Positions 322-41,945 of a DNA stretch of 64,000 nt are shown piece after piece. Origin of the DNA: Pantoea agglomerans (GTDB taxonomy: Bacteria > Pseudomonadota > Gammaproteobacteria > Enterobacterales > Enterobacteriaceae); contig NZ_CP083809.1 in the NCBI RefSeq assembly GCF_020149765.1, positions 2,294,001-2,358,000 of the forward strand. Direction: 5' to 3'. Under the pieces are notes generated by a model. The model ran no database searches and had not been told where the DNA came from. It saw only the letters and a list, made by a program, of their open reading frames with translations. A program made the translations under genes and the position numbers. Positions within the stretch are counted from its first letter, which is position 1. Each line of letters starts with the position of its first letter.

Positions 322-1413
322 ATGGGATTCAAATGCGGTATCGTGGGCCTGCCGAACGTCGGTAAATCCACCCTGTTCAACGCGCTGACTAAAGCGGGCA
401 TCGAAGCGGCTAACTTCCCCTTCTGCACCATTGAGCCCAACACCGGCGTGGTGCCGATGCCGGATCCGCGCCTTGATCAGCTGGCGGAGATCGTCAAACC
501 GCAGCGCCTGGTGCCGACCACCATGGAGTTTGTCGATATCGCAGGTCTGGTGAAAGGCGCGTCGAAAGGTGAAGGCCTGGGCAACCAGTTCCTGACCAAT
601 ATCCGCGAAACCGAAGCGATCGGCCACGTGGTGCGCTGCTTCGAGAACGAGAATATCATTCACGTCGCGGGCAAAGTCGATCCGGCGGAAGATATCGACG
701 TGATCAACACCGAGCTGGCGCTCTCCGATCTGGAAACCTGCGAGCGCGCCATTCAGCGCGTGCAGAAGAAAGCTAAAGGCGGCGACAAAGATGCGAAGGT
801 CGAGCTGGCCGCGCTGGAGAAGTGCCTGCCCCATCTGGAAAACGCCGGTATGCTGCGCGCGCTGAAGCTGGACGCCGATGAGAAAGCGGCGATCCGCTAT
901 CTGAGCTTCCTGACGCTGAAGCCGACCATGTATATCGCCAACGTCAACGAAGACGGTTTCGAGAATAACCCGTACCTCGATCAGGTGCGCGCCATCGCCG
1001 AAGCGGAAGGCTCCGTCGTAGTGCCGGTCTGCGCCGCCGTTGAGTCAGATATCGCCGAGCTGGACGATGAAGATCGCGCCGAGTTTATGGCCGAGCTGGG
1101 TCTGGAAGAGCCGGGCCTGAACCGCGTGATCCGCGCTGGCTACGCCCTGCTGAACCTGCAGACCTACTTCACTGCAGGCGTGAAAGAAGTGCGCGCCTGG
1201 ACTATCCCGGTTGGCGCCACCGCGCCACAGGCGGCAGGCAAGATCCATACTGACTTCGAGAAAGGCTTTATCCGCGCGCAGACCATCGCGTTTGAGGACT
1301 TTATCGCTTACAAGGGCGAGCAAGGCGCGAAAGAAGCGGGCAAGATGCGTTCAGAAGGTAAAGAGTACATTGTCAAAGATGGCGATGTGATGAACTTTTT
1401 GTTTAACGTCTAA
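322..1413 (+). CDS. ychF: redox-regulated ATPase YchF (Obg-family P-loop NTPase)
   Basis: 363 residues, the usual length of the family. The N-terminal G domain begins [20 protein letters not shown] with the Walker A/G1 motif GLPNVGKS at residues 8-15. [17 protein letters not shown] (about 73-89) is G3 and the Obg-type glycine-rich segment. The C-terminal TGS domain follows ([20 protein letters not shown], about 305-324, and the terminal [12 protein letters not shown]). YchF binds the ribosome and prefers ATP to GTP. The ATG is preceded by AGAAGGG at suitable spacing. Its 3' end, including the last two codons and stop, forms the left copy of a direct repeat that bounds the downstream island, so the gene is the integration target and is left intact. 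Confidence 0.97.
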
Positions 1414-1425
1414 ATAAGTTTTGTT
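1405..1425 (+). repeat. left att-like direct repeat at the ychF 3' end
   Basis: A 21-base sequence starting AACGTCTAAATAAG covers the last codons and stop of ychF and recurs perfectly at 19741-19761. A looser similarity then continues for about 200 bases in both copies (CACCTCATGAAGTTC, the ATCCACGC hairpin, CATTTTA-GTGAG). This is the expected footprint of a tyrosine integrase using the 3' end of ychF and restoring its coding sequence. Confidence 0.8.
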
Positions 1426-1472
1426 TTCGCATGAGGTGTCAGAGCACCTCATGAAGTTCAAAAAAAACCACA

Positions 1473-1499
1473 AAATCCACGCGCCTGCGTGGATTTTTT
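1473..1499 (+). terminator. rho-independent terminator after ychF
   Basis: Stem AATCCACGC / GCGTGGATT with a four-base loop and a run of T. An additional hairpin ATGAGGTG...CACCTCAT (1431-1452) lies just upstream. The same arrangement is repeated after the right att copy. Confidence 0.8.
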
Positions 1500-3065: not shown

Positions 3066-4016
3066 CCAACCATAGATTCAGTAGCAGACGGTTCGCATAC
3101 TATTGCTTCCGTTTGTGCCCTAATATTTTCATAATTCATTAGTTGGCATCCCTACATCTTTAGTCTCACATGTATGCCATCAAGCCATCAGATCCCTTTC
3201 GACAGCCCAAAGGCAGAAAGGAGCATATCGAAGCTGCCGGTTAGCGCAGCAGGCTAAAAACCTGGTCTACAGGATGTCCGCAGATCGCTCAGAGCAGATG
3301 TTCCTTGTATCTGGCTATGTTGATCCCTGGGCAAGATTTCATCCCCCCTGATTTTATCAACCGGTGATGAGTCCCAGCTAACTAAATGGCCCTTCGATAT
3401 TTTTTCTCTATTAACAGATATGGATGAGCCCAGTCAGTTACCTCTTCATATGAACAAACCCATCATGATCCAATGCGCAAATGGCCTTATGGCTGACAGC
3501 GTAACCATAAACCGCCCAACTTTCCAGACCCTGTAACATGTGCGACAAAAATTTTCGACGCATTAAATCCGACTTCCAGCGTTTACTAGTTGCCACATTT
3601 TTGTAGGTAATATTGGATAGTTGCCCTACTTCATTGGTTATATATTTATCGTAACGATTGGTTCTAGCTGTGCTCCTTAATGATCCAGCAATAAAGCCAA
3701 ATCTCGCCGTAAAGGTTTCAGAAGATGTTTCTAGCGTTTCAGTACTTGTATAGCCTGCCTCTACCTCACCTAATTCACGGTTCAACAAGCGTCTTATGCT
3801 GGATTTAAGTAATAGGGTAACAAACATGGCATTGAATATGCAGGAAAACCTGAATTACCTCATCAGCTCTTCAGCAACAAGCAACACCCGGCAGATATAG
3901 CTCGTTTCCAGTACTACAAGGGACTTTGCGGAAATGCCAATACCCAACAGCCCATGCCGTATTATCACGAGCTGGCATCCCTAGATGTCATAATTGACGC
4001 CACGTGCCAAACACGC
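3066..4016. other. degenerate interval between hypothetical gene and defence operon
   Basis: About 950 bases with no convincing intact gene. The only sizeable frame is 3438-3827 on the minus strand (129 residues, ending CALDHDGFVHMKR). It matches no family I recognise and has no clear ribosome site, so it may be a remnant or chance. The composition is intermediate between the AT-rich gene on the left and the operon on the right, suggesting decayed mobile DNA. Confidence 0.4.
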
Positions 4017-4605
4017 TCACCTAATGCAAGATGGCAGACTTTGTAAGCTAATACCAGTCTCAAAGAGCTTTATACGATTGCATGTAAGCCACCGTAACGG
4101 TGACTCTTTCACCAGCTCCGCACCTGTTTCAGCCAGTCGCGACAGGAAATTGAAAATGAATACTTTATTCTTCGTTGTGGGACTATCGTTATAGTAATCT
4201 AGTAATGCATCCAGATTGATTTCAAGCGGCTTAAAATTGTTCCAGCCCCCCTACTATCAACTTCCTGAAGGCAGCGTTAGGTATATCACGTTTAGACTTC
4301 TCATGTTTGGCACGCTGCCCATGACCTATGGCAATCTCAATCAGTTCATCAAATGAGTAACGTTTACGCTTGCTGAAAATGTCCGTCAAATAACGGTAGC
4401 AATCCTTACAGCTAAGGTATGCCTCGCTGTCGGTGCAAAATAATTTACGAAAAAATCGCTGAGAAACAACATATTCCCGGCATGAGCGCCGAGCATTGGA
4501 ATAACCGATTAGTTTGATAATTCCCGCGCTTGCCAGCGCCTCCATTGCACGCTCATACGTCGGCCCACTTTCCTTGAATATGTCAAGACATTTCTCCCTA
4601 ACCAA
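4017..4605 (-). pseudogene. small island protein, frameshifted at a G6 run
   Basis: The upstream frame gives 124 residues starting at TTG (4605) and stopping at 4231. The next frame from about 4250 down to the TGA at 4017-4019 reads about 75 further plausible residues (LEINLDALLDYYNDSPTTKN, then FNFLSRLAETGAELVKESPL). The frames join exactly if one G is removed from the run of six at 4246-4251 (C on the plus strand), giving about 195 residues. The first half looks like a winged-helix or regulator-like fold (ERAMEALASAGIIKLIGYSN), but no family is assigned. It begins 26 bases after the nuclease gene, so it is probably the last gene of the defence operon. TTG is the assumed start; an in-frame stop lies at 4645-4647. 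Confidence 0.5.
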
Positions 4606-4631
4606 CTCAAAGGTAAGCGTTTTCCCCAGAT

Positions 4632-5780
4632 TTAATTCTTTCCTTCACTTTGCCAGTGAAACTGAAACGCCGATCTTCTCGTATCCTGCATGTTGATGAC
4701 ATAGAAGTTGCGGGGAAAATACTCTGTTGATGTCTCACTGAAGGTGTTTAATCCGTACAATGCAATTTTTTTTCCTGTTATTTCCGTTGGTTCTGGAATG
4801 GTGCTGGAAGGCACACGAAAGACCTTAACAACTGAATTATCGGGTAGCAGGATCTTCAGCGTAAGAAGATGATCGTCACTTTCCGCTTCAAGTAATTTTC
4901 CGCTGATATCGATTCCGCCATGCTGAAGATCAGAAAGAGACGGTTGCATCTGCTTGCGTAGCTTTTCTGTCCAAGCCGGGCACGAGCAACGGCAGGAACA
5001 ATGGGAGCAGTACGTGCCAGGACAAGCCAGCTCATATACTGAAAGTGGGATATTCCGGGGCAAAAGTCGATTAATATTTTTGATAATCGTAGTGACCCGT
5101 TCAATCAGGTCTGTATCCAGTGTCCCTTCCCAGCTATCACGGCTCCCCGTCAGAACTAACCCAATGTTCATGTCAGGTGCTCGCTCTTTTAACATTATGC
5201 CATAGGCCGCGATCTGTAACAGGTTAGCTTCTTTCGGCTGGTTTTGTTCGTCTGTTACCTTTCCAGTTTTCAAATCAACTACGTTTAACCGATCGGGTCG
5301 CTCCTGATATATGAGGTCGGCCCGCCCATGCATATCGAAATCATTGCTGGTCAGCATAACCTCCCGGCCAACGGGTAATGTTTTTTCGTGTGCAGGAACC
5401 CCTTTTACGAAAACAGGCGGCAGAAGCGATCTGACGTAGCGGATCTGGGTAACAAGCATTTGGCGCGACACCAGCCCGGCAACGCCGTGACGGTCATATA
5501 TCCAGTTTGCTACCGGCCCGGCGCGTCGATTGGCTGTCAGCGCGATTGTAAAATCATTTTCCAGTTGCCTGAGGGTATAATTCCCGAAAGCGGCCTCCCT
5601 GTGTATCACTGAATTGACGCGTTGATGTATTACCTGGCCCAGAATCACTCCCGGATGCAGCGGTAAACGAGCGTAAGAATGAGCTTCACTTTCCAGCAGG
5701 TATTTCGCCGGGCAAACGGCGAAATACCCCAACAGGGAAGGAAGCACCGGACGAGTACGCGATAGCGTCATTTCATTCAT
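4632..5780 (-). CDS. Cas4/RecB-like PD-(D/E)XK nuclease with Fe-S-type cysteines
   Basis: 382 residues from the ATG at 5780. The frame is open further upstream, but AGGAG overlapping the druE stop codon fixes this start. The motif HGRADLI followed by VVDLKTGK is the D...D-x-K core of PD-(D/E)XK nucleases. An early cysteine in LGYFAVCPAKYLLESE and a later cluster CPGTYCSHCSCRCSC are arranged as in Cas4/AddB, where one N-terminal and three C-terminal cysteines hold a 4Fe-4S cluster. A C-terminal domain of about 100 residues is unassigned. The gene lies 7 bases after druE, so it is translationally coupled. A dedicated nuclease is not part of the Druantia type II set as I know it, so this may be an accessory effector. 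Confidence 0.85.
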   Translation of the reverse strand: MNEMTLSRTRPVLPSLLGYFAVCPAKYLLESEAHSYARLPLHPGVILGQVIHQRVNSVIHREAAFGNYTLRQLENDFTIALTANRRAGPVANWIYDRHGVAGLVSRQMLVTQIRYVRSLLPPVFVKGVPAHEKTLPVGREVMLTSNDFDMHGRADLIYQERPDRLNVVDLKTGKVTDEQNQPKEANLLQIAAYGIMLKERAPDMNIGLVLTGSRDSWEGTLDTDLIERVTTIIKNINRLLPRNIPLSVYELACPGTYCSHCSCRCSCPAWTEKLRKQMQPSLSDLQHGGIDISGKLLEAESDDHLLTLKILLPDNSVVKVFRVPSSTIPEPTEITGKKIALYGLNTFSETSTEYFPRNFYVINMQDTRRSAFQFHWQSEGKN

Positions 5781-5787
5781 TGCATTA

Positions 5788-8736
5788 TCACTCCTGAGAT
5801 GAGGACGCCTGAGTCCGTAATTTCGCCATTTCAGTCCCCATGCGGCGGGACAATGCAAAAGTATTCGTCGCGTCTACATCCACCTCATATGAAAATGCCT
5901 CAAGTTCGGGGTTTGCAGCAAATGCAGCATCGGGATCCCAGAATGGATGTAGTACGGCGGCCCAGCGCCCGTCCCCGGTGCGAATCACGGGTATATTCCC
6001 CATCACTTTTACGTCACTGTCGCTGTATAGCGAAGCGGCCTCTTTGGCTAATCGTAGGGCATTTTCCGGCCAGTCCGACACGCCCGGAGATGTAAAATCA
6101 CCGTTCAGCCCGGCGTTATAGGTTTGATCCAGAAGAAGTTGAATAACATCCAGTCCCAGACGCCAGTCCAGCAATCCGTGATATGGCTGGTTTCCGTATC
6201 GGTGGAGGCAGTGATAACACCCCTGAAAGCAGCGTTCGCGATGTTCGGGTTGCAGGAACTCAGCCAGCGGGTAGGCCTTTTTGTTATTTAAAATATTCTT
6301 CATGACCTCAAGGATAATGAGAGAACCGGATGCCCCCTTCTGCTGTAGCCGTTCACATAATCCTGAACCATTAACCAGGCGATCGGCCATTTGCAGAATC
6401 GGTACCGATTTACCGTTTTTCAACATTTGAACGCGGGGTTCCAGAATTTCGATTTCTTCAGGATCAATATCCAGCAGCTCTTTTGATGCATAGTTAACAA
6501 TGATAAAAGACGCCGAGAGCGCAGCAGCCCTGAATGCCGGAGTAAGCGTGGAATACTGTAGCCGGAGACCCGGCGGGGTTTGGGCAACCCTCAGCGCCAG
6601 TAGATCAGTCACTTTAGGCGCGGCAAGATAAAATGTGTTTCGATTTTCCCCTCGATCGGTAAAGCGGTTTTTAACTAACAGATCGGTCTCAATGATTTGG
6701 CTATCCATCCAAACCCGGTTCGCCCACAGCGACTGGTAAGTCCCTTGCTTTCTGAAAGGGACCGATAGGCTTCCCTGTGTTGCGCTGAAACCACGCCATT
6801 TTTTATCGGTGTAAACTCCCCGATTCAGGCGGTGCAGACATGTCTGCGGCTGAAGCTGTATCGCCACATTAACGCCAGGCTGTGGCATTGCAGAAAAAGT
6901 ATAGGCTTCTGCTATTGATACACGACTGGCCGTAGTCAGGATCTGATCAAAATCCTCTTTGGCCGATTTTGGTTCCAGCGTGGTGATAAATCCATAAGGA
7001 ACATAGCATTGATAGCGTTCCGCGTTATCCATAACGGCGCCGCAGATAGTACATTCTGTAGCCAGTGTGTTTGCAGGGGCCCAGACGTTGCACACCGGAC
7101 AGGCGGTCATTGTTCTGAGTTCACCCGGTTCGCAGGCATTTGAATAAAATGATCGTGGATTTTTTCTGCTTTGCTTAAGCATTCCACTATAACCTGCCGT
7201 AAAGTAGCGTCGTTTGTCCTGAACCAGAATTTTTCCGGGGGCAAATTCCTGTATCGCAATATCCAGATCGCGATCCATGCTGGCAAATTCGATTTCTTTT
7301 TCGCCTGTGCTGACGGGCCTTGTCAGCAACAGGCGTGATCGGGTCGGCATGCCATACATTGGAAATTTACCGTGTTCCGCCAGCGCTTCTGCCAGTCCTT
7401 TCGCCTCCATTGCACTGTCGTTCAGTACGGCGTTAATATCCTGAATCAGTTGTTCCGGCGTCAAAGGCTGAATAATTTTCTGGAATAAATGTTGGTCTTG
7501 CTGCGTGCAAGTCCGGGCAAATTCATCGCGTGCCAGGATGGTTGCTTCGATGGCCCGCCGGATTTTTGGCAGCCATTCTGCCTGGTTTTCTTTCAGCCAG
7601 TGTACCGGGAAAAACTCACCGTGGTTATCAGGGGTGTACGCGTATTCGTCAACCGGCCATGGGTGATCTGCTTTTTCCGTTTGCTGCCTTAACCATTTGA
7701 ATGCCGACACCAGCCAGATTTTTCGTACCAGTCTCTGGCAGATCATCTCCAGCTTTGTGGTCAAAAACGGTGGCGGAGGGAGATCACCGGTAATTTTTTC
7801 CGGATAGCGGAAGTAAAACAGATCGTGACTCTTGCTGCGACACGCGGTTAATACGAATGAAAACGCCTGTCCGCGTCGTCCGGCACGTCCCACACGCTGT
7901 TGATAATTAAAGCGTTGTGGAGGCATGTTAGCCTGAAAGACCGCGCGTAAATCACCGATATCCACTCCCACTTCCATGGTTGTGGTTACGGAAAGCACAT
8001 CGACCACGCGAGCTGCCCGGTCAAGGTCTCGATCGGGCGCAAAATCTTTCATTCCCTCCGGTAAAATATCATCGTCGTCGGCAATCAGAATACCTTTAAA
8101 CCGGCGTAGCCTTGCCGCCGGGTTTTCGGTCATTCCAGTCAGTTCCTCTGAGCGCATCCGGTGAATACCAGAAGAATGTGAGAGACGTTTGCCAAGATAA
8201 TGTTGCATCTGGAGCGTTTTTGCCTCGCTGCACGGCGTTTCTGGTAAAGGAGAGTAGCAGCGAGTACAGATTCCCGCGCCGGTGTGCATGTGTATACGCC
8301 CACAACGGGAGCAGCGCCAGACGCGATCGGTAGGTTCCGCCAGGCGAAAGTGCATTTTGCCAATATCAATAATACCGCCCTGATGACCCGCCAGCTCCAG
8401 TCGCCGGAGAAAATTATCAATTAAAGATAAAGGCTCGCCTCCTGAACGCTGGCATATCTCCTGCGTAAAGCGGTACAGGCGGTTTCTACGATTGACATCG
8501 CGCGCTGAACTCCATGGGGTTTCTGGCTTTGTATATTGTGAAGGGGTAACCCGGTACGCGTCAGCCAACACACGAAACATTGCGTCATAAATCGCGAGAT
8601 GTTCCCGTGAGTCGTTTCCGGTAATTGGAAGGCAGGGATAACCCCAACCGGACTCTTCCAGCGCGAAGTAGGTTTTACTGAATACGCTTTCCCCCACCAG
8701 CCGTTTCAGATCGCGTGAAATCTCCTGTCGTGCCAC
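5788..8736 (-). CDS. druE: DruE-like helicase, C-terminal half (helicase C + DUF1998)
   Basis: 982 residues if it restarts at GTG 8736. It carries superfamily 2 motifs V and VI: VTTTMEVGVDIGDL and QRVGRAGRRGQAF. Zinc-binding pairs follow (CSRCG...CTRC, CPVC...CTIC), then a C-terminal DUF1998-type cysteine set CFQGCYHCLHRYGN. It reads in the same frame as the 8809-11736 segment, separated only by the TAA at 8809-8811 and 24 codons (QLFEKNAQGAW...). A single codon change would fuse both into one protein of about 1,980 residues, near the usual size of DruE. A restart at GTG is possible but no strong ribosome site precedes it. Confidence 0.8.
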   Translation of the reverse strand: MARQEISRDLKRLVGESVFSKTYFALEESGWGYPCLPITGNDSREHLAIYDAMFRVLADAYRVTPSQYTKPETPWSSARDVNRRNRLYRFTQEICQRSGGEPLSLIDNFLRRLELAGHQGGIIDIGKMHFRLAEPTDRVWRCSRCGRIHMHTGAGICTRCYSPLPETPCSEAKTLQMQHYLGKRLSHSSGIHRMRSEELTGMTENPAARLRRFKGILIADDDDILPEGMKDFAPDRDLDRAARVVDVLSVTTTMEVGVDIGDLRAVFQANMPPQRFNYQQRVGRAGRRGQAFSFVLTACRSKSHDLFYFRYPEKITGDLPPPPFLTTKLEMICQRLVRKIWLVSAFKWLRQQTEKADHPWPVDEYAYTPDNHGEFFPVHWLKENQAEWLPKIRRAIEATILARDEFARTCTQQDQHLFQKIIQPLTPEQLIQDINAVLNDSAMEAKGLAEALAEHGKFPMYGMPTRSRLLLTRPVSTGEKEIEFASMDRDLDIAIQEFAPGKILVQDKRRYFTAGYSGMLKQSRKNPRSFYSNACEPGELRTMTACPVCNVWAPANTLATECTICGAVMDNAERYQCYVPYGFITTLEPKSAKEDFDQILTTASRVSIAEAYTFSAMPQPGVNVAIQLQPQTCLHRLNRGVYTDKKWRGFSATQGSLSVPFRKQGTYQSLWANRVWMDSQIIETDLLVKNRFTDRGENRNTFYLAAPKVTDLLALRVAQTPPGLRLQYSTLTPAFRAAALSASFIIVNYASKELLDIDPEEIEILEPRVQMLKNGKSVPILQMADRLVNGSGLCERLQQKGASGSLIILEVMKNILNNKKAYPLAEFLQPEHRERCFQGCYHCLHRYGNQPYHGLLDWRLGLDVIQLLLDQTYNAGLNGDFTSPGVSDWPENALRLAKEAASLYSDSDVKVMGNIPVIRTGDGRWAAVLHPFWDPDAAFAANPELEAFSYEVDVDATNTFALSRRMGTEMAKLRTQASSSQE

Positions 8737-8808
8737 AAGCAGGTTGTCTTCATAGGATGGAAGCGCCTTCCAGCACCACGCCCCCTGCGCGTTCTTTTCA
8801 AAGAGTTG

Positions 8809-11736
8809 TTACCATGCAAAGGTCAGCGTGCCTTCTTCATGTTTTTCAGGATCGGGAACAGGCGCGATGCCAGTACGATCGGAAGGGTGAATACCTGCAT
8901 CTACCTGCGCCCTTAACAGCAGGCCAAGCGGTTGACCTGCATCCGGTGATTCAGGTTCGAGGATTTCACGCAGAGGTATGCTGTCAGCTTCAGGCTTTGA
9001 TAATAACCCTCTGATTTTCTTTCGTTCATCAGCAAGTTGATCCAATTCATCCTCTTCCTCATCCGACCTTACGTTGAGGTTAATCAGTGTTTTGTTCCGG
9101 TTCTCTATCTCTGCCTGGCGTATTTTTAGTTGGTTATGGGACGGTTTATCAGCCGCAATGGACTGTAGCGAATGGACAACAATTTCTCGTCTGACGTCGT
9201 CATGATGACCCGATTCCAGATCGAGCGCCGCCCTTGCGGCATCTTGACGACTATCTGAAAACGTTACAAGTTGCTCACGGTTACCCGATCGCTGTAGTTC
9301 CGCCATTAGCGAGCTGGTCAGTAGCTGTGTCGTTTTCGAAAAACCGACGCGAAAGCTACGGATTGGGGAAAGCTTACCTTTGCCGTATTTGTAGGATGTA
9401 CCACATGCCGGACACTGAAAAGGTAGCGCCGTTCCCGGTGACTGGCTGGATGACTGGCCTCTTTCCGGGGTAGAAAATTCACCGGGTTTGACATCATAGA
9501 ACCAGCCCGCAATATAGTTTTCTGACAACTGTTTTAATAACGGAACAGGATGCTTAATGGTGGCGGTATACGGATCGTAACTGGCTTTTACCCATGTACC
9601 GAAAGTATTGTCATTGTCGCTTTTTAGCTCCTCATTTCCTTTCGGCCAGAAACGTTCGACGACAGGCATAAATAACGCGTATTCTTCAGCAGATCGGCGT
9701 TCTACCATGACTGATTTTGCGTGTTCGGGCAGTTGTTCCGTATCCGGGTCGTTGGGTAAAAGTTCAATTCGATTTTCTGCACCAGAAAAGACTGAAGGTT
9801 TACCGCCCAAGAAGAGATTGCCGCAGCATTCACAATAAAGTAATTCGACACGTCGCGATTTTTTATCTTTGCCGTAACGTAAGCCGGACTCTATGGTAAG
9901 ATCGCCAAAATAGCGGTGATTGATTTCTTGCGCAGATGCAGCGCTGGGGACGGAAATTGGCGCGGCATATAACCCTTCTAGTGCACGCAAAAAAGCATGC
10001 GCGCGGAAACGCGGCGCACCGATATCATCAGGAAAGGCATGTGAAAACCATTGCGGCCAGTCTCCCTCAGTCGAGCGTAACCAGATTAATGCCCGGAGCG
10101 CTTTTTCACTATTGGGTTGAGCGCTAAATATGCGTGAACTAAGCATTTTAATTGATGTGGCTCTCGGAGAATGATCGTCCGTATAGCAGCCACTTTCAAG
10201 CAGGTTGGCTGCCTGTAAGACGACACGTTGCGCCAGTTGTTCTGTAGAGGCTTCACTGGCTGTCATTCCCATGCTGCGGGCGACATTCTGCCAATATTGT
10301 AATGAGGTAAGTGGTGCTTGCTGTAACTTAAGCACTGCGTGATAAAACGCCTCCAGATCCCCTTGGAAAAGAGACATATTGCCCGGGGGAAGGGTGTCAC
10401 CTTTGATAATACATTCTCTCCAGTCGCTGGAAGAGGCACCTGCGGGTAATCCCCGCTGACCGAACATTCCCCATAAATATTCGACGCTTTGATCACCTTC
10501 AGACCCTTCAACGGGTAAAGAGGCGCTGGAGGCCAGAATACGCAATTTGTGTCGGTGTTTTTCCTGATCCAGCCCCAGCCGGTTGATCAAATGTTTAAGC
10601 AAGTAGCTGACTTCAGTACCAGCGGTTCCTCGCTGTAGATGAAGTTCGTCAAGAATAAGATAAAAATAGGCATCAGGATCGCGCTCAATCCACTGTCGGG
10701 TTTGCTCAAAAATAGGATCGTCCACCTCGCGAACCAGCATCGTTGAGAGCATGCTGGTGTTGGTGATCAAAATATCGGGCGGTGTCTTTTGCATTTCCCA
10801 GCGGCTGAGAACCTCTCCGCCAGCGGTTCGGGGGAAATTAAACGATAATTCGTTATCCTTGTCCTGCTGCGCTTGTCGTACCGCCTCCTGATGGGTCTCT
10901 TCCGTTAATTGCATATATTCACGCAGCTCAGTGATTTTTTTAGCTACGCGCTTTTTCTCATTTTTTTCTTTACTGAGTCGGGGATGTTTAAGCCAGCCAG
11001 TTACTTTAGTTGCGCTGGTATAACGGCCAAAGAAGATCCGGTTGCCGCCGAAATGCGTATCCATGACATCATGAGCTTCGCTGGAATCCAGCGCTCGTCG
11101 CATACGTACCAGTTGATCTTCTACCAAGGCATTCATCGGGTAGAGGATCAGCGCGCGTACCGCTTTCGGACGAGCAGCGGCTTCATGCTCGCGCATGAAG
11201 CTGGGCTGTTTATCCGCTTCCTTATGCCACCACGGTTGCCAGCGCTTCAACGCCGGGCTTTGCGGCCAGCCGGTAGCTTCTTTTGCGATCTGTGCCAGAA
11301 CCGGCAGTAAAAATGATTCGGTTTTACCGGAACCGGTCCCGGAGGTGACAATGCCCGGTTTCCCTTGCTGTACCCCTCTTTTCAGCATGTCCAGTTGATG
11401 GGTATAAAGATTAAAACGTCCCTTAGTTGAATCCGTTTTATTGCGGGGCAGAAGTCCACCTAAACAGAGGTCGATGAATGCCGCCCTTTGTTGCGCATTA
11501 AACCCTGGCAACCATGTCTGACCATGAGCATCATTTCGTAATTCACTGATAGTTAAGCCATAGTTCTGATATCGGGACATCGGCTCAAGAAATAGATCGG
11601 CGCATAATGTCCCTTGCTGTTCCAGTAACGCTCGCCGTTCAGTCTGTATGTCTGATGAACCAATACGGAAGGCCGTTTCAAGGTACGAAATATAAAAATC
11701 TCTTATTGATTCAAATGTTTCCAGTGGGTTATTCAT
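8809..11736 (-). CDS. druE: DruE-like helicase, N-terminal half (DEAD/DEAH ATPase domain), ends at an in-frame TAA
   Basis: 975 residues. Walker A is TSGTGSGKTES (about 131-141). YPMNALVEDQLVRMRRAL is motif Ia and LILDELHLQRG is the DExH box. ILASSASL is motif III. Zinc-like pairs CECCGN and CPACGT come later. Helicase motifs IV-VI are absent because they lie in the downstream half. The final residues TFAW are followed by TAA CAA in frame; a CAA-to-TAA change would explain it. In Druantia, DruE is the large helicase common to all types and is essential for phage resistance. The ATG is preceded by AAAGGATTAATA. Either the system is inactive or the two halves assemble. Confidence 0.82.
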   Translation of the reverse strand: MNNPLETFESIRDFYISYLETAFRIGSSDIQTERRALLEQQGTLCADLFLEPMSRYQNYGLTISELRNDAHGQTWLPGFNAQQRAAFIDLCLGGLLPRNKTDSTKGRFNLYTHQLDMLKRGVQQGKPGIVTSGTGSGKTESFLLPVLAQIAKEATGWPQSPALKRWQPWWHKEADKQPSFMREHEAAARPKAVRALILYPMNALVEDQLVRMRRALDSSEAHDVMDTHFGGNRIFFGRYTSATKVTGWLKHPRLSKEKNEKKRVAKKITELREYMQLTEETHQEAVRQAQQDKDNELSFNFPRTAGGEVLSRWEMQKTPPDILITNTSMLSTMLVREVDDPIFEQTRQWIERDPDAYFYLILDELHLQRGTAGTEVSYLLKHLINRLGLDQEKHRHKLRILASSASLPVEGSEGDQSVEYLWGMFGQRGLPAGASSSDWRECIIKGDTLPPGNMSLFQGDLEAFYHAVLKLQQAPLTSLQYWQNVARSMGMTASEASTEQLAQRVVLQAANLLESGCYTDDHSPRATSIKMLSSRIFSAQPNSEKALRALIWLRSTEGDWPQWFSHAFPDDIGAPRFRAHAFLRALEGLYAAPISVPSAASAQEINHRYFGDLTIESGLRYGKDKKSRRVELLYCECCGNLFLGGKPSVFSGAENRIELLPNDPDTEQLPEHAKSVMVERRSAEEYALFMPVVERFWPKGNEELKSDNDNTFGTWVKASYDPYTATIKHPVPLLKQLSENYIAGWFYDVKPGEFSTPERGQSSSQSPGTALPFQCPACGTSYKYGKGKLSPIRSFRVGFSKTTQLLTSSLMAELQRSGNREQLVTFSDSRQDAARAALDLESGHHDDVRREIVVHSLQSIAADKPSHNQLKIRQAEIENRNKTLINLNVRSDEEEDELDQLADERKKIRGLLSKPEADSIPLREILEPESPDAGQPLGLLLRAQVDAGIHPSDRTGIAPVPDPEKHEEGTLTFAW

Positions 11737-11750
11737 TATTAATCCTTTGC

Positions 11751-14531
11751 TTATAACTGGAAAAGGGTCTCAAGTACGCTTGCAGATTCACCGATAGTCA
11801 TTTCCTGAACATATGGCCCTAACTCCGGGGCAAGAGCGTCAATCGTGGTCGAAATATCTTGTGCCGTACTACGGCCTAGGCTATAAGCCAGACGGGCAAC
11901 AGCTTGTGCTTGTTCATCAGGAAGTAAAGAGAGTAGCGCTGCTTCTAGCACTTCCCTTGGCGCACAAGCTTGGTACTCTGGCTGGGGGTTGTCCACATTG
12001 ATTGTCTGCCATAGTTCAAGGGTAATACGAGAAGGCGTGATGTCAGTATTTTGCTCAAATAGCCGTTCATCCGACCATATATTTTCTGCAAGAAACAGGG
12101 GTAACTGGTAAGCAAGAGGAGCCTGTAATGGAAACGTGCTTTTCCCGGTGGTGAATGTGAGTAAAAAAAGTATCGGGTGTCGGATGGGCAAATGTCGTAG
12201 AGCCTGCCGCCGATCCGTCCAACTGCATGCGGCAGGATGGCGAGTTCTGAATAAGCACTCTTGGAGTTCAGGGAGCAGCGTTTCTGGAGGAGTGCGGTTA
12301 AAACCACGCAATTCAACGATGCTCGCCAGCCCTGCCTCTTGTTGATGGGTCAAAAAATCGCCTAGCGTCATGGTATTAGTATCGCCGGATAAACGGATCA
12401 ATGTGGGGGAGTTCATTAAATCACTGAAGCTAAAATGGTCGCTATGTACCGATACTTCCCCCCAAACATTCCCAGCTAAGAGATTCGCTAGTGAGGCGAT
12501 AGTCTCTTTCGTCTGTTTTCCCATCAATCCGACTGCGGGTGTAACACTCGCAGCGGCAATCAGGCTGGATAATAAAGATTCACTTAGTCCCGTCGCCAGA
12601 GCCTGTTTTTCGATAGCCGATGATAGTTGATGTTTGCGAGTCAGGGCATTCGTCTCTGCTAATGGAAAATTAGAATTTACTGATTCGGCTACAGATTCTG
12701 GTGCTATTCGTCGTTGGGCAGGTTGTTCCTGCACTGTTTCATTTTTAATTATCGCCCGCAGTAACGCTGTCTGGGCCAGCGTTTCAATTCCCGCTTGAGA
12801 TGCAGCTTCGAAGGTCTTTTTAATCCGTTGTTCCAGTTCATTTTCTTGCTGACGTAGCGCTTTATTAATACGATCGGTCTCTTTTTTCAGTTTTTTCTTC
12901 TGGTCGTCGATTTCATTTTCAAGCTGTATTTTCTTTTCAGATAATACCTTTATTGATTGTTTAATCTGGTACTGTTCTTCTTCGTAACGAGTCAGTATTT
13001 CTTGTTTCTCAATATTAATTTGCGCTTCAACCTCAGGTAAAGCCAATAACTGTTGAGTCGTATCGTTAAGAAAGGATTTTGTATCTGCTATCTGTTCCAG
13101 GTGAGATACTGCACGAAGATAGGATGCCTCATTATCAGACTCATGTTCAGCAATAAAATGGGTTAAATTTTGTAGCTGTCCTTTACTGAATTGAGGGAAA
13201 TCTTTTGCTGAATCAGTGCGTTTAAGCAGGCGTTTGATCCACGTGCTAGCTTCAGCGCAATCATATTTTTTACTCACCTGAGGGAGTTCAGTGATCACCC
13301 TGAGGGCATGAGAACCAAGTAGTGTCTGAGAAACCTGACGATAACTCTCTAGCGGCATATCAAAGTCATATTTTTTAGGATCAGACAAGTCACCCGGTAA
13401 TCTTAGGGATACGCCATCACTTAGATGAAAAATGACCGCCGTATCGTTTTGCGGCTGGTAGCGGGTCAGTAACCACTCTCTGACAGCATCAGGCTCATCA
13501 GAGGCATGAGGCAGCGCAACGACAGGATAAACGCGCGACAGGTAGTCAGTAATAACATACTGCGCGGGTTTATCAGACGGCTGATATCGGGCTTTCCATA
13601 TTGCTATTTCACCCCGAGTAATTTTTTTGCTGAAATGGCTTTCAAAACCAATGGCTTCACCTCCATGGGGGAAAAGATCTTTTACCAGTTCCTCCGGGAG
13701 GTCTCGTAGGTTGCCATTAATTAACAGACTAATCGGCATAACAAAAAAAGCGCCGGTTGCGGTTAACGCTAACACTTTTCCAATGAACATAACTTCGTCC
13801 ATCGAACTGTCGATTTCTTTGGAAACAACGGGAGGAGCCTGTATTACACTGGTACCATCTATTGTTTTAAGGTCGTAACTGGCTTCAAACTGATCGATAA
13901 GCTCACCCAATTTTCGCGCCATCGGTAAAGAATGTTCTGATAGCTTTGTCCGCCATCGATTATCGGCTGTTCGCGTTCCCCTGAGTGCATCAACCAATCC
14001 CCCAACAAACAGCGGTATAGTGCGCTCTGGCTTAGGAATTTCTCTACCCTGACTAATTAAGGCACAATGTTCAATGTCTTCATCCATGAAATTAATTGTC
14101 GAAGAGTCAGAAACACCATGTTGGGGTAAATCTATTTCTTCACCATTCAGGAATTTCGTTATAATTTCAGGGCAGTCAGAAGAAATATAGAATCCCAGAA
14201 TAGTGCGCCATAACGGTTTACAGAGTTCAATATCTTCCGCATTACTTTCTGCTTCTAACAGATCTCTAAGAACATTTTCTGGGTCATTTTGTTCAGAAAA
14301 CGTTAAATTTTCACGAAGCCAATCAGACACAACAAGTTTGGCCTTAGGTGGTAACGTACGGAGAAAATGTAACCTTTTCTCTGGTCCTTTAGGTAAATTA
14401 TCTGCTTTAGCGCCATTTCTGGTGAGCCTTTGCTTGCACTCTTGCAAGCATCTGATCAATTCATGAGCTTCTGTACCGAAGCTGTACATTTGGCCCAGCC
14501 GGTCGCTGATAATACTTTTCTTTTTAGCCAT
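11751..14531 (-). CDS. druG: DruG-like large protein with coiled coil
   Basis: 926 residues from the ATG at 14531, chosen because AAGGAG lies 9-10 bases upstream; the frame stays open to 14552 without an equally good site. It is a soluble protein with a marked coiled coil around residues 520-590 (EEEQYQIKQSIKVLSEKKIQ, DDQKKKLKKETDRINK). No catalytic motif is recognised. It occupies the druG position, between the druF candidate and the helicase, 15 bases before druE. By position and size it fits DruG of Druantia type II, whose biochemical role is unknown to me. A long coiled coil suggests a scaffold that bridges partners. Confidence 0.68.
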   Translation of the reverse strand: MAKKKSIISDRLGQMYSFGTEAHELIRCLQECKQRLTRNGAKADNLPKGPEKRLHFLRTLPPKAKLVVSDWLRENLTFSEQNDPENVLRDLLEAESNAEDIELCKPLWRTILGFYISSDCPEIITKFLNGEEIDLPQHGVSDSSTINFMDEDIEHCALISQGREIPKPERTIPLFVGGLVDALRGTRTADNRWRTKLSEHSLPMARKLGELIDQFEASYDLKTIDGTSVIQAPPVVSKEIDSSMDEVMFIGKVLALTATGAFFVMPISLLINGNLRDLPEELVKDLFPHGGEAIGFESHFSKKITRGEIAIWKARYQPSDKPAQYVITDYLSRVYPVVALPHASDEPDAVREWLLTRYQPQNDTAVIFHLSDGVSLRLPGDLSDPKKYDFDMPLESYRQVSQTLLGSHALRVITELPQVSKKYDCAEASTWIKRLLKRTDSAKDFPQFSKGQLQNLTHFIAEHESDNEASYLRAVSHLEQIADTKSFLNDTTQQLLALPEVEAQINIEKQEILTRYEEEQYQIKQSIKVLSEKKIQLENEIDDQKKKLKKETDRINKALRQQENELEQRIKKTFEAASQAGIETLAQTALLRAIIKNETVQEQPAQRRIAPESVAESVNSNFPLAETNALTRKHQLSSAIEKQALATGLSESLLSSLIAAASVTPAVGLMGKQTKETIASLANLLAGNVWGEVSVHSDHFSFSDLMNSPTLIRLSGDTNTMTLGDFLTHQQEAGLASIVELRGFNRTPPETLLPELQECLFRTRHPAACSWTDRRQALRHLPIRHPILFLLTFTTGKSTFPLQAPLAYQLPLFLAENIWSDERLFEQNTDITPSRITLELWQTINVDNPQPEYQACAPREVLEAALLSLLPDEQAQAVARLAYSLGRSTAQDISTTIDALAPELGPYVQEMTIGESASVLETLFQL

Positions 14532-14566
14532 GTTAAACGTTCTCCTTACCACCTGATTCTGTAAAA

Positions 14567-17338
14567 TTACTGGAAGGTTCTACGCAGCTTGCGTGTTGTC
14601 AGCGCTCTGTTCCGTCGTTCCAACGCGCGTTGGCACGAAGGGGAAACCATTACATTGTCCCAGAGTGGAAATTTCCCCCCTGCAAATAAGTAACCACCAT
14701 TATCTGTTATCGACAAGCATCCATGGGCAACATGGATCCACCACTGTAAAACGGAGGGCGGTAACGCAAAGATTTTCTTTGGCCAGCACCAGTCAGTATC
14801 GCCTTTTTGCACGCCAACCGTTTCTCCTGAACATATCATCTGAGCCATTAATGCCCAGGAGAAGCTATCAGTTTGCCAGTATCCGGTGTTCTGCCGAATA
14901 AAATAACGATAACGCTGCTTTTCCTGACACCGTATCAATAGATTATTAGCCGTTTGAGTAAGCCGCTGTTCTTCTGACCATTTGTATTTTTCAGCTTGCC
15001 ATAGCGACACATGGAGTTCCGGGGGTAAAGCCGGGATAAACTGCATTTGAGACAGTGGTAGCAATACTCCGCTCAAAGCATTTACGGGGAAATCGTCGTG
15101 ACTAACCAAACGTAACCCAAACTTTTCAATGAAAGCATGAATACGCTCTTTGGCTGATAGATGCAATTCAATACAACCCATTGAACAACCTTTATCCTCA
15201 ACCAACCGACGCCCTATTCGCTCACCGTTATTAAGTGCTTCTTGGAGAAGATTACGTTCACTTCTTGTAAACATCCCCAGAATTCGGGCAACAATTCCCT
15301 GCTCAGTGACATCAACGGAAATGGTTCTTTCAGCCAATGAGACTAACGAATATGGCGCATGACGTCGTTGTACTACACAAAGCCAGCCAGCAGCAAAGAG
15401 CATGCGACGCAATTGCCACTCGGGTATCCTCGTTACCTGTGATACGGGGTCAATATGTTGTTTTAATTCACCAAAAGGCAATGTGCTACGACGTTGAAAA
15501 CGCAATGCCAGCGCCTCAGCGAGCCAGTCAAATGCTGCGGGTATATTATGTAACTCGGTATATTGGCATGTTACAGGAAGGCAATTTTTATACTGCCATA
15601 ACATCTGAGCACCACTCAATGGTGTTATTTTTTCGCGTTTCAGTGGGGGGATCACTGCCGTATCCCCTAACGCCATTAATACTCCCGATGGTCCATCAAT
15701 AAGCCATTCATGTGGCTCTGTAATTTTACAATAAGTGGCGTAAGGCGCGTGATCTAACACGTGTACATCAAAATTTACTGGGATATCTGAATGCGCTAAC
15801 GTAAGTTCGTAGCGACAAAATGCCTGACCAGATATTTCCATCAACTCCTCTGGTGGAATGAATAATCCTTCAGCTCCCTGAGATAGCGAGCCATGAGTTA
15901 ATACTTCTCCGTCTTTATTGCTGATGACATAGCATCCTCTTAGTACTTCAGGCATATGAATTATTGGTGTACTGGCAGGGTTAAGCAGTATAGCCTGTCC
16001 AAATCGCGCTGCACCTGACATACGAGGTCGAGCAGGCTGCCATCCCTGTATTAGAAAACGACGGGCTTCTTCTGGTAACAAACGGGCAATCTTATCCAGC
16101 GTTTGCCTGCCAACTTTATCGGAAGAAACTATCGACCATTTGGTAGATTTAATATCCCGACGTTGTACTCTTTCGCCAACCTTCTTCAAGACAGCGTAAA
16201 TACTGTCTGCATATGTATGATGAAGTATTAAATAGGTTGGAGAATCTTCATAATATTCTCCTTCTGAACTAATATGACAAAAATCATCACGAAAAAGCGG
16301 CAAACACCCAGACCGCAGTGCGACTCCCACTCGTGATTTATAGAAATAACCCTTCCCTTTTTTTAATAATAAATCCAAGGAATTTAATGTGGTGCCTATG
16401 TCTCGTTCGTAATATATATTATTATAGTTCTCTATTTCATTAGGCAAGGAGTAATAACGCTGGATTTCTGAGGCTTTAGCAGCAGCGTCATCCATAAGAA
16501 GATAAATCTCCGGATTACCTGAATCATTAAACTCCATGTGAATACAATACTTACCATTCTCTTTGAGTTGTTCTCTTTCTGTGTGTACAGTGATATCACG
16601 GACAGCGCCCCAAAAAGGAGAGTCATAAGCCTGCTGCATAGCAGCCTTTGAAAGTAATGTTCTGAACTCAATAAACTCTTGGTTAAAAACTTCGCTAAAA
16701 TAAGATATATATTGATGTACTACCTTATTAACTGATTCAAAAGTTGAATGGTTATCTAATTTATTATCGATGAGAATATTCCGTAAAAAGACCTCATCTT
16801 TGTAGCAGGGAAAAGCAATTCTCTTGGAATACCCAATCAATCTTTCATGCTTTGATGGCCTTGGCAAGATTAAACGGGTACAGTTTTGTCTTTTACTACT
16901 CCATCTTTCTAACCTTTCCCATAAGTTGGGTAATTCAGTAAAAACAAATTTTTTATTTTTATCAAAGCCAAGCAGCACAGAAAATCGAACCCGAAAATCC
17001 CTTTCGTCATGTGTTTCATCATCAGCACTGGCAGCAAGTAATGTTAAATATAAAACGGCAAAATAAGTAGGGTATCCTTTTATTTGCGCTAAAATGTCTA
17101 ATCGCGACTCATCCCTGAGAGCATCCTGGATTTTAGACGCTTTTTTTCCGAACGAAATCAGGAAACTTCGCTTAGCATCCTCTTTGCTACGTGGACCTGC
17201 AAGTTGCTCAAAAATGCGTCCCGTAGTATCAATTCGGCTTAAAGTCGAGCCTGTATGCGAAGACTCAAAAAAGACGATCTTTACTAGTTCAGCATTCCAT
17301 TCTTCTAAAGTAACCGGGAAAGAATTATCCATACTCAC
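14567..17338 (-). CDS. druF: DruF-like large protein of unknown fold
   Basis: 923 residues with a GTG start (an ATG two codons on, 17332, is equally possible; GGTGAG precedes it). It contains no helicase, nuclease or methyltransferase motif that I recognise and no membrane segment. The C-terminal third has a Trp-rich stretch (CWPKKIFALPPSVLQWWIHV). It begins 3 bases after the methyltransferase stop, indicating translational coupling. Order and size (methyltransferase, about 920, about 930, DUF1998 helicase) match druM-druF-druG-druE of Druantia type II. The name is therefore positional inference, not a domain match. Confidence 0.66.
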   Translation of the reverse strand: MSMDNSFPVTLEEWNAELVKIVFFESSHTGSTLSRIDTTGRIFEQLAGPRSKEDAKRSFLISFGKKASKIQDALRDESRLDILAQIKGYPTYFAVLYLTLLAASADDETHDERDFRVRFSVLLGFDKNKKFVFTELPNLWERLERWSSKRQNCTRLILPRPSKHERLIGYSKRIAFPCYKDEVFLRNILIDNKLDNHSTFESVNKVVHQYISYFSEVFNQEFIEFRTLLSKAAMQQAYDSPFWGAVRDITVHTEREQLKENGKYCIHMEFNDSGNPEIYLLMDDAAAKASEIQRYYSLPNEIENYNNIYYERDIGTTLNSLDLLLKKGKGYFYKSRVGVALRSGCLPLFRDDFCHISSEGEYYEDSPTYLILHHTYADSIYAVLKKVGERVQRRDIKSTKWSIVSSDKVGRQTLDKIARLLPEEARRFLIQGWQPARPRMSGAARFGQAILLNPASTPIIHMPEVLRGCYVISNKDGEVLTHGSLSQGAEGLFIPPEELMEISGQAFCRYELTLAHSDIPVNFDVHVLDHAPYATYCKITEPHEWLIDGPSGVLMALGDTAVIPPLKREKITPLSGAQMLWQYKNCLPVTCQYTELHNIPAAFDWLAEALALRFQRRSTLPFGELKQHIDPVSQVTRIPEWQLRRMLFAAGWLCVVQRRHAPYSLVSLAERTISVDVTEQGIVARILGMFTRSERNLLQEALNNGERIGRRLVEDKGCSMGCIELHLSAKERIHAFIEKFGLRLVSHDDFPVNALSGVLLPLSQMQFIPALPPELHVSLWQAEKYKWSEEQRLTQTANNLLIRCQEKQRYRYFIRQNTGYWQTDSFSWALMAQMICSGETVGVQKGDTDWCWPKKIFALPPSVLQWWIHVAHGCLSITDNGGYLFAGGKFPLWDNVMVSPSCQRALERRNRALTTRKLRRTFQ

Positions 17339-17341
17339 CGC

Positions 17342-18490
17342 CTAATTACCGTTCGCTGTCATCTTTTTCAAACCAGCACCAGAAAATAAATGCCGAAAAA
17401 GTACCTCAGCCAGCAGTGGGGGAACAGCATTACCAATTTGGGTAAATTTTGACTCGACGTCTCCTACAGGCTCAAAATCCTGTGGAAAAGTTTGTATTCG
17501 TGCACATTCCCGCCATGATAACCGCCTTGCCTGTTCCAGTTTGGGACGAGAAGTATCAACAATTAGATGCTCATATTCATCAGAAAAGTCCCAGCGCTGC
17601 TTCCAGCCATCCTCCAGGTTTGACCATGTTAACTTCATCACCGGGCTGGCAGGATGTAATGTCACATGACGCCAGTTAGCTACGACGGTGTAAGCAGGGC
17701 TGTCCCATAGAGCTTTACGATTTCGGGACATGAAATACCATGAGAAATGCCCTTCAGGATCATGTGGTCGTTCGTAAAACTCACCTTCAGGCCATAGTGG
17801 TAAATCCCTAATAGCCTCACCATGTGAAACATAGGGTTTTAAATGAGGATTCTTTTTTGTCGCTTTCCCATGTGTTTCAGCAGGAAATTCAAAGTATTGC
17901 CCCAGATCGTTTCTGACGCCAATAATAAACAAACGCTTGCGCGACTGAGGCACGCCGTAAGCCCTCGCGTTTACCATATGATAGCTGACTTGGTACCCGG
18001 CAGCTTTATATGCCGTGAGCTGTTGTTCCAGAAAGCTACCTGCCCCTAAATGTTTCAAGCCCGAAACATTTTCAGCAACAAAATACTTCGGCTGAACAGT
18101 CTCTAATACCCGTAGAAAGTGTTTATAAAGGTTTGTTCTGTCGTCATTGTTAGGTTTTCTGTTACCTGCCATTGAAAATGACTGGCAGGGATAGCCTCCA
18201 ACAACAATATCAACATCTGGAAAAGACAGAATTTGAGAGATATCACTATGCCTGATATCACTATCGGGGAAATAGTTCCCTAATGTTTTGCAGGCATTCT
18301 CTACAACATCGTTGGCAAAGACGATGTCTCCACCAGCTGAGGTAATTCCAAAATCCATACCACCACAACCGGAGAAAAGTGAAAGTACCCGAATATTATC
18401 GTTCTCTCTCTCAAAAACACTGCTCATACGCCCATACCAAATATCTTCTTCTAACAAACCGTAACTGGTTTTTATTTGCCATAAAATCAT
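17342..18490 (-). CDS. druM: DNA (cytosine-5) methyltransferase, DruM-like
   Basis: 382 residues with the ordered C5-methyltransferase motifs: I LSLFSGCGGMDFG, IV GGYPCQSFS with the catalytic Cys, VI AENVSG, VIII QSRKRLFIIG and X IGNAVPP. The target-recognition region lies between VIII and IX/X (about 210-320). It transfers a methyl group from SAM to C5 of cytosine. As first gene of the operon it probably marks host DNA so that the helicase/nuclease complex ignores it. The ATG at 18490 has no good ribosome site; ATG 18427 (MSSVFEREN) is an alternative start. Confidence 0.9.
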   Translation of the reverse strand: MILWQIKTSYGLLEEDIWYGRMSSVFERENDNIRVLSLFSGCGGMDFGITSAGGDIVFANDVVENACKTLGNYFPDSDIRHSDISQILSFPDVDIVVGGYPCQSFSMAGNRKPNNDDRTNLYKHFLRVLETVQPKYFVAENVSGLKHLGAGSFLEQQLTAYKAAGYQVSYHMVNARAYGVPQSRKRLFIIGVRNDLGQYFEFPAETHGKATKKNPHLKPYVSHGEAIRDLPLWPEGEFYERPHDPEGHFSWYFMSRNRKALWDSPAYTVVANWRHVTLHPASPVMKLTWSNLEDGWKQRWDFSDEYEHLIVDTSRPKLEQARRLSWRECARIQTFPQDFEPVGDVESKFTQIGNAVPPLLAEVLFRHLFSGAGLKKMTANGN

Positions 18491-18495
18491 AGAGA

Positions 18496-18523
18496 AAGAT
18501 TATACACCTGTGTAAAGAATCTT
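18496..18523. promoter_or_regulatory. inverted repeat overlapping the druM promoter
   Basis: An imperfect palindrome with arms AAGATTATACAC and GTGTAAAGAATCTT separated by CT lies immediately upstream of the druM start. On the coding strand it contains TATAAT, so a bound repressor would block transcription. Control of the operon by methylation or by a small regulator is inference. Confidence 0.4.
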
Positions 18524-18595
18524 ACATCAATATACTTAGCCTTTGAGGGGCAAGTGATGTTTTTGTTGTTAAGGTCTTACTAAAATGGCCGTTCT

Positions 18596-19400
<805 letters not shown>

Positions 19401-19740
19401 TTGTAGGCTTTCTCTCTGGATTTAGCGCTATCGACTTGTCAAGCATCAAGCTTCATGGGGGCATCTCCCAAAGCCAAACACAGAATATCCCTACTTATGC
19501 CCCCAACTATGATTTGACTTCGGTTGAGTCGAGTTGATAACAGAGATAAGGTACGGGCCAAAAATCGCATCATACGGGCTTTTAGTTGATTTCAATTGAT
19601 TGAAATGAGTTTGAAATAGTACCGATAATTGGCGACGAATCCACCACCTTCGCATTACGAATGTGAGCCAACTCAAAAATGAGTACAAATAAAAATTAAA
19701 TAAAACAATAAAAATCAACCTCATAAAAAAATCACAATTC

Positions 19741-19761
19741 AACGTCTAAATAAGTTTTGTT
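19741..19761 (+). repeat. right att-like direct repeat
   Basis: A perfect 21-base copy of 1405-1425, beginning AACGTCTAAATAAG. It marks the right end of the 18.3-kb island. It is itself followed by a leader and integrase remnant like those expected at the left end of another element, so it may also be the left end of a second, tandem element. Confidence 0.8.
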
Positions 19762-19809
19762 GTTTCATGGGGTTTCACAGCACCTCATGAAGTTCACAAA
19801 AAATCTATA

Positions 19810-19836
19810 AAATCCACGCAACTGCGTGGGTTTTTC
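19810..19836 (+). terminator. second copy of the ychF-type terminator
   Basis: Stem AATCCACGCA / TGCGTGGGTT with a T run, homologous to the hairpin at 1473-1499. It is part of the imperfect ~200-base repeat that follows each att copy. Confidence 0.7.
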
Positions 19837-19988
19837 ATTTCTTAGTGTTCCAACTCATCTCGTCACGACGCGGTGAAAAATGAGAACAAAGATGGGTACA
19901 ACATGCTTCCATCTTCATTTTAAGTGAGTCCTGTAACAAAAGAATAAATAAACAGGTGTCCTTCAGGCCCACTGACACACAAAGCCGC

Positions 19989-20490
19989 ATGGCCAGGCCA
20001 AAAGAAAAACTCTATCGGCTCAATGACTTTAATGGCCTCTACCTCGAAGTGGAACCCAATGGCGAAAAGGCCTGGCGCTATCGGTTTAAACTCAAGGGTA
20101 AATCCAGCATGTTTGCGTTGGGTGAGTATGCAGCGATAAAGCTCGCCGAAGCGCGAGAGAAATGCGAGCAAGCGCGTAAGCAGGTCGCAGATGGAGTTAG
20201 TCCGACACAGGCTCGTCAGTTAGATAAGATCCGCAAGGTCAATGACGCTTCTAACACCTTTGAGCTGATCGCTAAAGAGTGGTTGCAAATGAAAGACTGG
20301 GCCGAAATATTCAAACACGCCGACTGGATATGTTTTAACGTGTGTTTTTCCGCAATATTGGCAAACTCCCTATCAGGCAAATCACACTGCATCATATTTT
20401 CAAAATACTTTAGATAGCCTCTAAATGCGGCGCACCGACCGTTGCAGCTGAAGCCCTTGGATTATTCAATCGATTTTCGATCTGGCGATA
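19989..20490 (+). pseudogene. P4-family tyrosine integrase, truncated and frameshifted
   Basis: The ATG at 19989 opens MARPKEKLYRLNDFNGLYLE. The DUF4102 arm-binding domain runs to about residue 80 (MFALGEYAAIKLAEAREKCE), then the start of the core-binding domain (NTFELIAKEWLQMKDWAE). A frameshift near 20310 moves the reading to RRLDMF...RNIGKLPIRQIT, and a further shift gives KCGAPTVAAEALGLF, all recognisable integrase sequence. The catalytic R..H-x-x-R..Y domain is absent. It points away from ychF directly after the att copy, the standard place for an integrase. It is inactive. Confidence 0.85.
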
Positions 20491-41901: not shown

Positions 41902-41945
41902 GTTTAACAGACACCTCCGAGTCATTTAAGATGGCTTAAAGAGAG

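Follow-up and report, generated by a model that had tools for sequence, protein, structure and literature searches.

A very likely five-gene Druantia type II cassette with an interrupted helicase gene, borne by a decayed integrative element at the ychF 3' end in Pantoea agglomerans

The window analysed here, a stretch of 64,000 nucleotides of Pantoea agglomerans contig NZ_CP083809.1 (assembly GCF_020149765.1, positions 2,294,001 to 2,358,000), harbors a row of long genes on one strand close to ychF, which the sequence-only reading had taken for a Druantia type II-like defence operon on a ychF-linked island. The locus raises the questions of whether the operon is indeed Druantia type II, whether it could still work in this genome, and how it came to lie beside ychF. 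Druantia type II was reportedly first described by Doron and co-workers in 2018, with the gene order druM-druF-druG-druE.

Gene order and identity of the operon

On the minus strand, five genes follow one another in the block at 4632-18490 of the window, in the order druM-druF-druG-druE-druK:

17342..18490, minus strand: druM, C5-cytosine DNA methyltransferase; ORF of 382 aa, likely start Met22 at 18427
14567..17338, minus strand: druF; ORF of 923 aa, PADLOC DruF2
11751..14552, minus strand: druG; ORF of 933 aa, likely start Met8 at 14531, PADLOC DruG2
8809..11736, minus strand: N-terminal part of druE; 975 aa, PADLOC DruE2
8809..8811, minus strand: in-frame TAA, codon 976 of druE; a sense codon in Shewanella chilikensis and Xenorhabdus bovienii
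5788..8808, minus strand: C-terminal part of druE; 1,006 codons past the stop, with GTG at 8736 as the earliest start listed
4632..5780, minus strand: druK, Cas4/RecB-like PD-(D/E)XK nuclease; 382 aa, PADLOC DruK

The order and tight coupling of the genes proposed from the letters alone were borne out by the shared strand and by intergenic gaps of 3 nt (druM/druF), 14 nt (druF/druG) and 14 nt (druG/druE), and the two proteins of about 925 residues correspond to the druF and druG ORFs. druK lies inside the stretch to which the operon had been assigned but was missing from its gene list. The longest stop-free run in the block is 1,006 codons, compared with no more than 219 in 50 base shuffles, and the G+C content is 0.38-0.53 per kilobase of the block vs 0.58-0.63 at 22-28 kb of the window.

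Comparison with the PADLOC profile models showed that all four proteins of the original gene set match type II models at 762 to 1755 bits. These were DruM2 (PDLC00031, 762.4 bits, druM residues 22-382), DruF2 (PDLC00022, 1754.6 bits, druF residues 3-922), DruG2 (PDLC00024, 1754.4 bits, druG residues 8-933), and DruE2 (PDLC00015), which matched the N-terminal part of druE with 1336.4 bits (profile positions 2-916 of 1887) and the C-terminal part, read as ORF 5788-8736, with 1352.9 bits (profile positions 942-1886 of 1887). The Druantia type II identity was hence supported: both DruF and DruG found their models, and no DISARM or other model gave a better match. DruF and DruG, earlier placed by size and order only, are now placed by sequence models that cover nearly their whole length. 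Judged by its sequence, the operon would be Druantia type II by descent, the interrupted druE lowering only the likelihood of a working system; owing to this interruption, "probably inactive defence operon" is the more apt name.

DruM, claimed earlier as a C5-methyltransferase, matched Pfam PF00145 (230.8 bits) in agreement with that claim, and its best solved relative by sequence was M.HaeIII (PDB 1dct, 157.1 bits). The motifs PCQ, ENV and QIGNAVPP were found to be present in DruM, the frame of which is open, in contrast to that of druE. For DruF, 84 homologs were found and the AlphaFold2 model had a mean pLDDT of 86.1, with no sequence relative in the PDB at E <= 0.1. DruG showed a predicted coiled coil at about 505-599 and an OB/cold-shock-like stretch at about 246-343; its predicted model is poor, the C-terminal part being mostly of low confidence, and a PDB search with its profile turned up no GTPase. 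No Pfam match over the curated cut-off was obtained for DruF or DruG, and neither of their models gave a Foldseek match with E <= 0.001.

The in-frame stop of druE

The helicase had been described as a single DUF1998/superfamily 2 frame of about 1,980 residues. The single frame did not hold, as the 1,983-codon reading at 5788-11736 contains a TAA at codon 976, with 975 codons before and 1,006 after it. The superfamily 2 assignment was retained, with Pfam DEAD and Helicase_C matches on the two parts. The DUF1998 name stood only in part: a C-x3-C-x2-C motif is present at residues 1836-1843, but neither part matched Pfam DUF1998 at E <= 0.05. The N-terminal part contains the Walker A motif GTGSGKT at residue 133 and DELH at 363, and the C-terminal part contains motif VI (QRVGRAGR) at 1280, Cys pairs and a degenerate C-terminal domain, so that the stop separates Walker A and DELH from motif VI. 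Type II DruE is reported to terminate in an inactivated Vsr domain (PMC12458937). The report on the type III DruE structure places the ATP cleft between two RecA lobes and has it formed by both (PMC13192584). By analogy, the 975-residue N-terminal part alone should not be an ATPase, since the site is built from both lobes. With the stop lying between the ATPase lobes, the effector arm is most likely dead in this genome, and Druantia II is probably switched off.

Among solved structures, PDB 9wae_A matched the N-terminal part of druE with 610.9 bits and the C-terminal part with 555.5 bits. The 9wae series comprises seven entries of a protein of 1970 aa named "Helicase". As it matches the Rhizobium DruE2 at 1616.9 bits as well as both parts of DruE here, it is a DruE2-type protein. 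A literature search for 9WAE, 9WDS and 9WDY, for which other wording is possible and which had most subscription papers outside its scope, found no paper. PDB 9tu7, named "DEAD/DEAH box helicase", gave 65.1 and 66.4 bits to the two parts, and we infer it to be the type III DruE dealt with in PMC13192584.

In S. chilikensis and X. bovienii, druE is intact as one 1,980-residue frame, with DruE protein identities of 94% and 87%, respectively. The gene in the window is otherwise whole, the TAA being the sole break in its frame. The dN/dS of druE was 0.16 before the stop and 0.11 after it against S. chilikensis, and 0.10 and 0.11 against X. bovienii; as such pairwise values average over the whole divergence, they accommodate a young stop and a harmless one alike. 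The absence of decay in the codons past the stop suggests that the break is recent or else an assembly error. An assembly or sequencing error, behind which the operon would be an intact and working Druantia II, is improbable. It would fit with a single affected codon and with a remaining frame that is open and no less constrained than the part preceding the stop, but long-read errors are typically insertions or deletions and not codon substitutions such as the one seen here, and the assembly consists of 5 contigs, listed as 100% complete with 0.01% contamination.

The codon affected lies within a short W-x-x-L-F stretch that is kept in all six aligned relatives, in each of which druE is a single frame. 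This conservation argues against a natural split site, and it is very improbable that DruE functions as two chains, with the part past the stop re-initiated and the lobes assembling. Stretches variable in length and sequence on both sides of the stop, its position between the regions matched by DruE2 and close to the borders of the PDB 9wae matches, and the constraint (dN/dS) on both parts would be consistent with two chains. So would the report of Bell et al. (PMC12458937) that the helicase and OB-CON-DUF1998 parts are sporadically separated in YprA lineages, but the separation point given in that paper lies elsewhere in the protein. Moreover, the first restart is a GTG at codon 1001, which on visual inspection has no clear ribosome site, and a start there would lose 24 codons. 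A search of the genome for the C-terminal part of druE gave one match, the locus itself, and hence no second copy; no tRNA gene was found in the window.

The druK gene, cassette relatives and the ychF island

The druK ORF reads 4632-5858 from a TTG; the likely start is the ATG at 5780, which has AGGAG upstream and lies 7 nt past the druE stop. DruK matched PADLOC PDLC00058 with 712.8 bits, Pfam PF12705 (PDDEXK_1) with 50.6 bits and PF01930 (Cas_Cas4) with 27.4 bits, PADLOC Cas4 models with up to 48.5 bits, and a Cas4-Cas1 fusion model with 27.8 bits. Cas4-like nucleases are comparable to AddB and Dna2. The motifs GR-x-D, D-[LF]-K (D-L-K at residue 195) and LQ..Y are kept in the DruK sequences of the window, S. 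chilikensis, X. bovienii and Rubrobacter. With regard to an iron-sulfur cluster of the Cas4 kind, a Cys-Pro near the N terminus together with a C-terminal Cys group was observed in three sequences; in the Rubrobacter protein, the N-terminal Cys did not align and the C-terminal Cys group was less regular. No separate cas1 or cas2 was found among the 10 window ORFs scanned.

In each of the three type II cassettes opened, druE is followed by druK, as it is in Rubrobacter, an actinobacterial relative. Rubrobacter marinus carries on its plasmid NZ_CP045122.1 a DruE2 (1917.2 bits) and, 4 nt past it, a DruK-like protein (92.1 bits); a DruM2 (419.3 bits) and a short ORF resembling DruF2 (59.7 bits) lie upstream of druE, and the 473-aa ORF preceding druE matched no model. 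The order at 222000-246000 of this plasmid is vsr, druM, short druF, two ORFs, druE2 and druK, and past druK lie genes for an ATP-binding protein, a restriction endonuclease and an integrase. A DruE2-like helicase without an adjacent DruK occurs at plasmid loci of Rhizobium, Sinorhizobium and Roseomonas (that of Rhizobium gave 2205.0 bits in a PADLOC scan; the remaining two were compared by alignment only). A tblastn search with DruK over the plasmid records matched Rubrobacter only, with nothing elsewhere on those three plasmids. DruK thus occurs in four of the seven loci, a small and uneven sample in which three are close relatives, and it is not universal beside DruE2-like helicases. A literature search found no paper pairing Druantia with DruK, other wording being possible and most subscription papers being outside its scope; druK can be regarded as an under-described fifth gene of the cassette.

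Of 392 genomes in the GTDB family, two gave a DruG match and the same two a DruK match; DruK was found in none of 14 control genomes. From the coordinates, the second of these genomes is inferred to hold the same contig as the X. bovienii locus. DruG occurred in 1 of 369 genomes of the class and 1 of 61 of the genus, and the DruF profile in 1 of 398 genomes of the phylum, the window's own genome in each case. Scanning genome contigs with a single protein yielded two loci. The 13.9-kb block had no megablast match among 20,395 records of E. coli (5,426 genomes), nor among 72,556 plasmid records, and druE DNA gave none in E. coli in sensitive mode; DruG was absent from the plasmid records and, by two peptide patterns only, from IMG/VR, and DruK from the phage records, all collections that may omit records near the window.

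The S. chilikensis cassette aligned in one piece with window positions 4630-18456 at 91.9% DNA identity, and that of X. bovienii aligned at 4659-18506 with 79.5%; tblastn found druM, druF, druG and druK in both. A single alignment at 91.9% that reaches from close to the start of druM as far as the stop of druK favours a joint transfer of all five genes. The surroundings of the cassette differ, as judged by eye: it lies behind guaB-guaA-like ORFs in S. chilikensis and beside another integrase-like ORF in X. bovienii. In the S. chilikensis region, guaB-guaA-like ORFs (690-4239) and a short tyrosine integrase (4547-5314) come before the cassette and an AbiEi/AbiEii-like pair (20012-21860) after it, likewise by eye. 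Against X. bovienii (region 7163-13105), the dS of druE was 0.62 and that of druM, druF, druG and druK 1.0-1.5; the lower value of druE hints at gene exchange within the operon.

The linkage of the island to ychF, as proposed earlier, was upheld by repeats of the ychF 3' end on either side of the block. The features of the island borders are as follows:

322..1413, plus strand: ychF ORF, host gene, the 3' end of which is the left border of the island
1402..1467, no strand: left direct repeat of 66 nt (88%), ychF 3' end and following bases (attL-like)
19738..19803, no strand: right direct repeat (attR-like), 58/66 identical
19956..20417, plus strand: tyrosine-integrase remnant with Arm DNA-binding domain; ORF of 153 aa, PF13356 78.3 bits
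21604..21652, plus strand: another short piece of this integrase coding sequence; 49-nt repeat of 20238-20286, 82%

The best identity reached in 20 base shuffles was 35 of 66 positions, vs the 58 observed. The ychF DNA matched in 59 of 60 genomes of the genus, the window's own included. Positions 19741-20456 match DNA directly beside ychF in another genome of the genus (L027) at 79%, where they form part of a longer integrase-like frame. Only integrase remnants were recognised, and the island can probably no longer move by itself. In six regions of the genus, the distance from ychF to the conserved beginning of a sensor-kinase stretch ranges from about 0.14 kb to about 10 kb with differing contents, the shortest coming from a 2.9-Mb genome (L030) in which the kinase gene is itself broken; the ychF site would be a hot spot. 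Taken together, the locus is very likely a five-gene Druantia type II cassette carried by a decayed integrative element, the entry point of which was the 3' end of ychF, with an effector arm that is most likely dead.

Other features of the window were also observed. Upstream of druM, at 18560-19000, lies a remnant resembling a GNAT-type acetyltransferase gene (by eye). An ORF of 348 aa with very low G+C at 2019-3065, minus strand, matched PHROG 7779 (function unknown) with 647.7 bits and was without a match in Pfam, NCBIfam and PADLOC at the limits applied; it has 25 homologs, and its DNA is matched in 61 of the 5,426 E. coli genomes. In the two E. coli loci opened, the homologs have yfdR on one side and an integrase on the other, at the edge of a prophage, which is a common location of accessory and defence genes. 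An IS3-like transposase ORF (42287-43099) lies in a low-G+C patch between ORFs 40135-41925 and 43101-44195, which may be parts of one gene (both by eye).

Proposed mechanism and comparison with known systems

In intact relatives, DruM would methylate host cytosines and so mark self DNA, and DruF and DruG would sense infection or unmarked DNA and serve DruE as adaptors. DruE would load on DNA with exposed single strands and translocate using ATP, and DruK, as a Cas4-like nuclease, would cleave the strand opened by DruE. It is tentatively suggested, at somewhat less than even likelihood, that type II of this lineage is a two-gene helicase-nuclease in which DruE has lost its own nuclease and DruK replaces it, acting in an AddAB/RecBCD-like manner against DNA unmarked by DruM. 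If DruK is the type II nuclease, a missing step of Druantia type II becomes testable. The single stop in druE next to an open druM could possibly be what early loss of a modification-linked defence system looks like, with the effector going first and the methyltransferase kept.

DISARM, Dpd, and Druantia III and IV were rejected on PADLOC scores, the best non-Druantia models on the helicase parts being DpdJ (63.7 bits), BrxHI (34.1 bits) and DISARM DrmA (30.4 bits, spanning 70 residues only). DISARM comprises a DrmA helicase with separate DrmB and DrmC genes, and a DUF1998-type Cys motif and a C5-methyltransferase, both present here, occur in it as well. The runners-up on DruM were a type II methyltransferase model (281.1 bits) and DrmMII of DISARM (199.0 bits). 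That the operon is DISARM, Dpd or another YprA-helicase system instead of Druantia II nevertheless has next to no likelihood, as DruE2 scored over 1,300 bits and DruM2 far above DrmMII, and DruF and DruG matched Druantia models only. DrmB and DrmC, given as separate genes beside the DrmA helicase in PMC12458937, were not among the matches listed for the 10 ORFs scanned with PADLOC. Druantia type IV is described, in PMC8565338, as DruE, DruF and DruL without DruM and DruG; here DruM2 and DruG2 are present, and DruE4 scored 666.5 and 567.4 bits on the helicase parts, under DruE2. DruL was not among the matches listed for the 10 ORFs scanned (for DruM, the best 25 of 63 matches).

DruK shares its Pfam and PADLOC matches and its motifs with PD-(D/E)XK nucleases of the Cas4/AddB/Dna2 type, but is linked genetically to druE instead. 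According to PMC13192584, the type III DruE belongs to the same YprA-type helicase family with zinc modules; it has, however, its own PLD nuclease, whereas the nuclease here is a separate gene behind druE. Bell et al. (2025) place Druantia I and II in type IV CoCoNuT, which, in their reports, has an inactivated CnuB-like GTPase bearing a coiled coil (PMC12458937, PMC11090510). DruG here likewise has a predicted coiled coil, plus the OB/cold-shock-like stretch, but a GTPase domain was not detected in it, in a model with a mostly low-confidence C-terminal part. The protein of PDB 9wae is a single chain, unlike the two-part druE of the window. The closest agreement is with Druantia type II itself: all four proteins match its models over their full or nearly full length and in the same order, whereas druE is interrupted by an in-frame stop and a fifth gene, druK, for which PADLOC has models, follows behind it. 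The operon is hence one more case of a known system, in a worn-out state.
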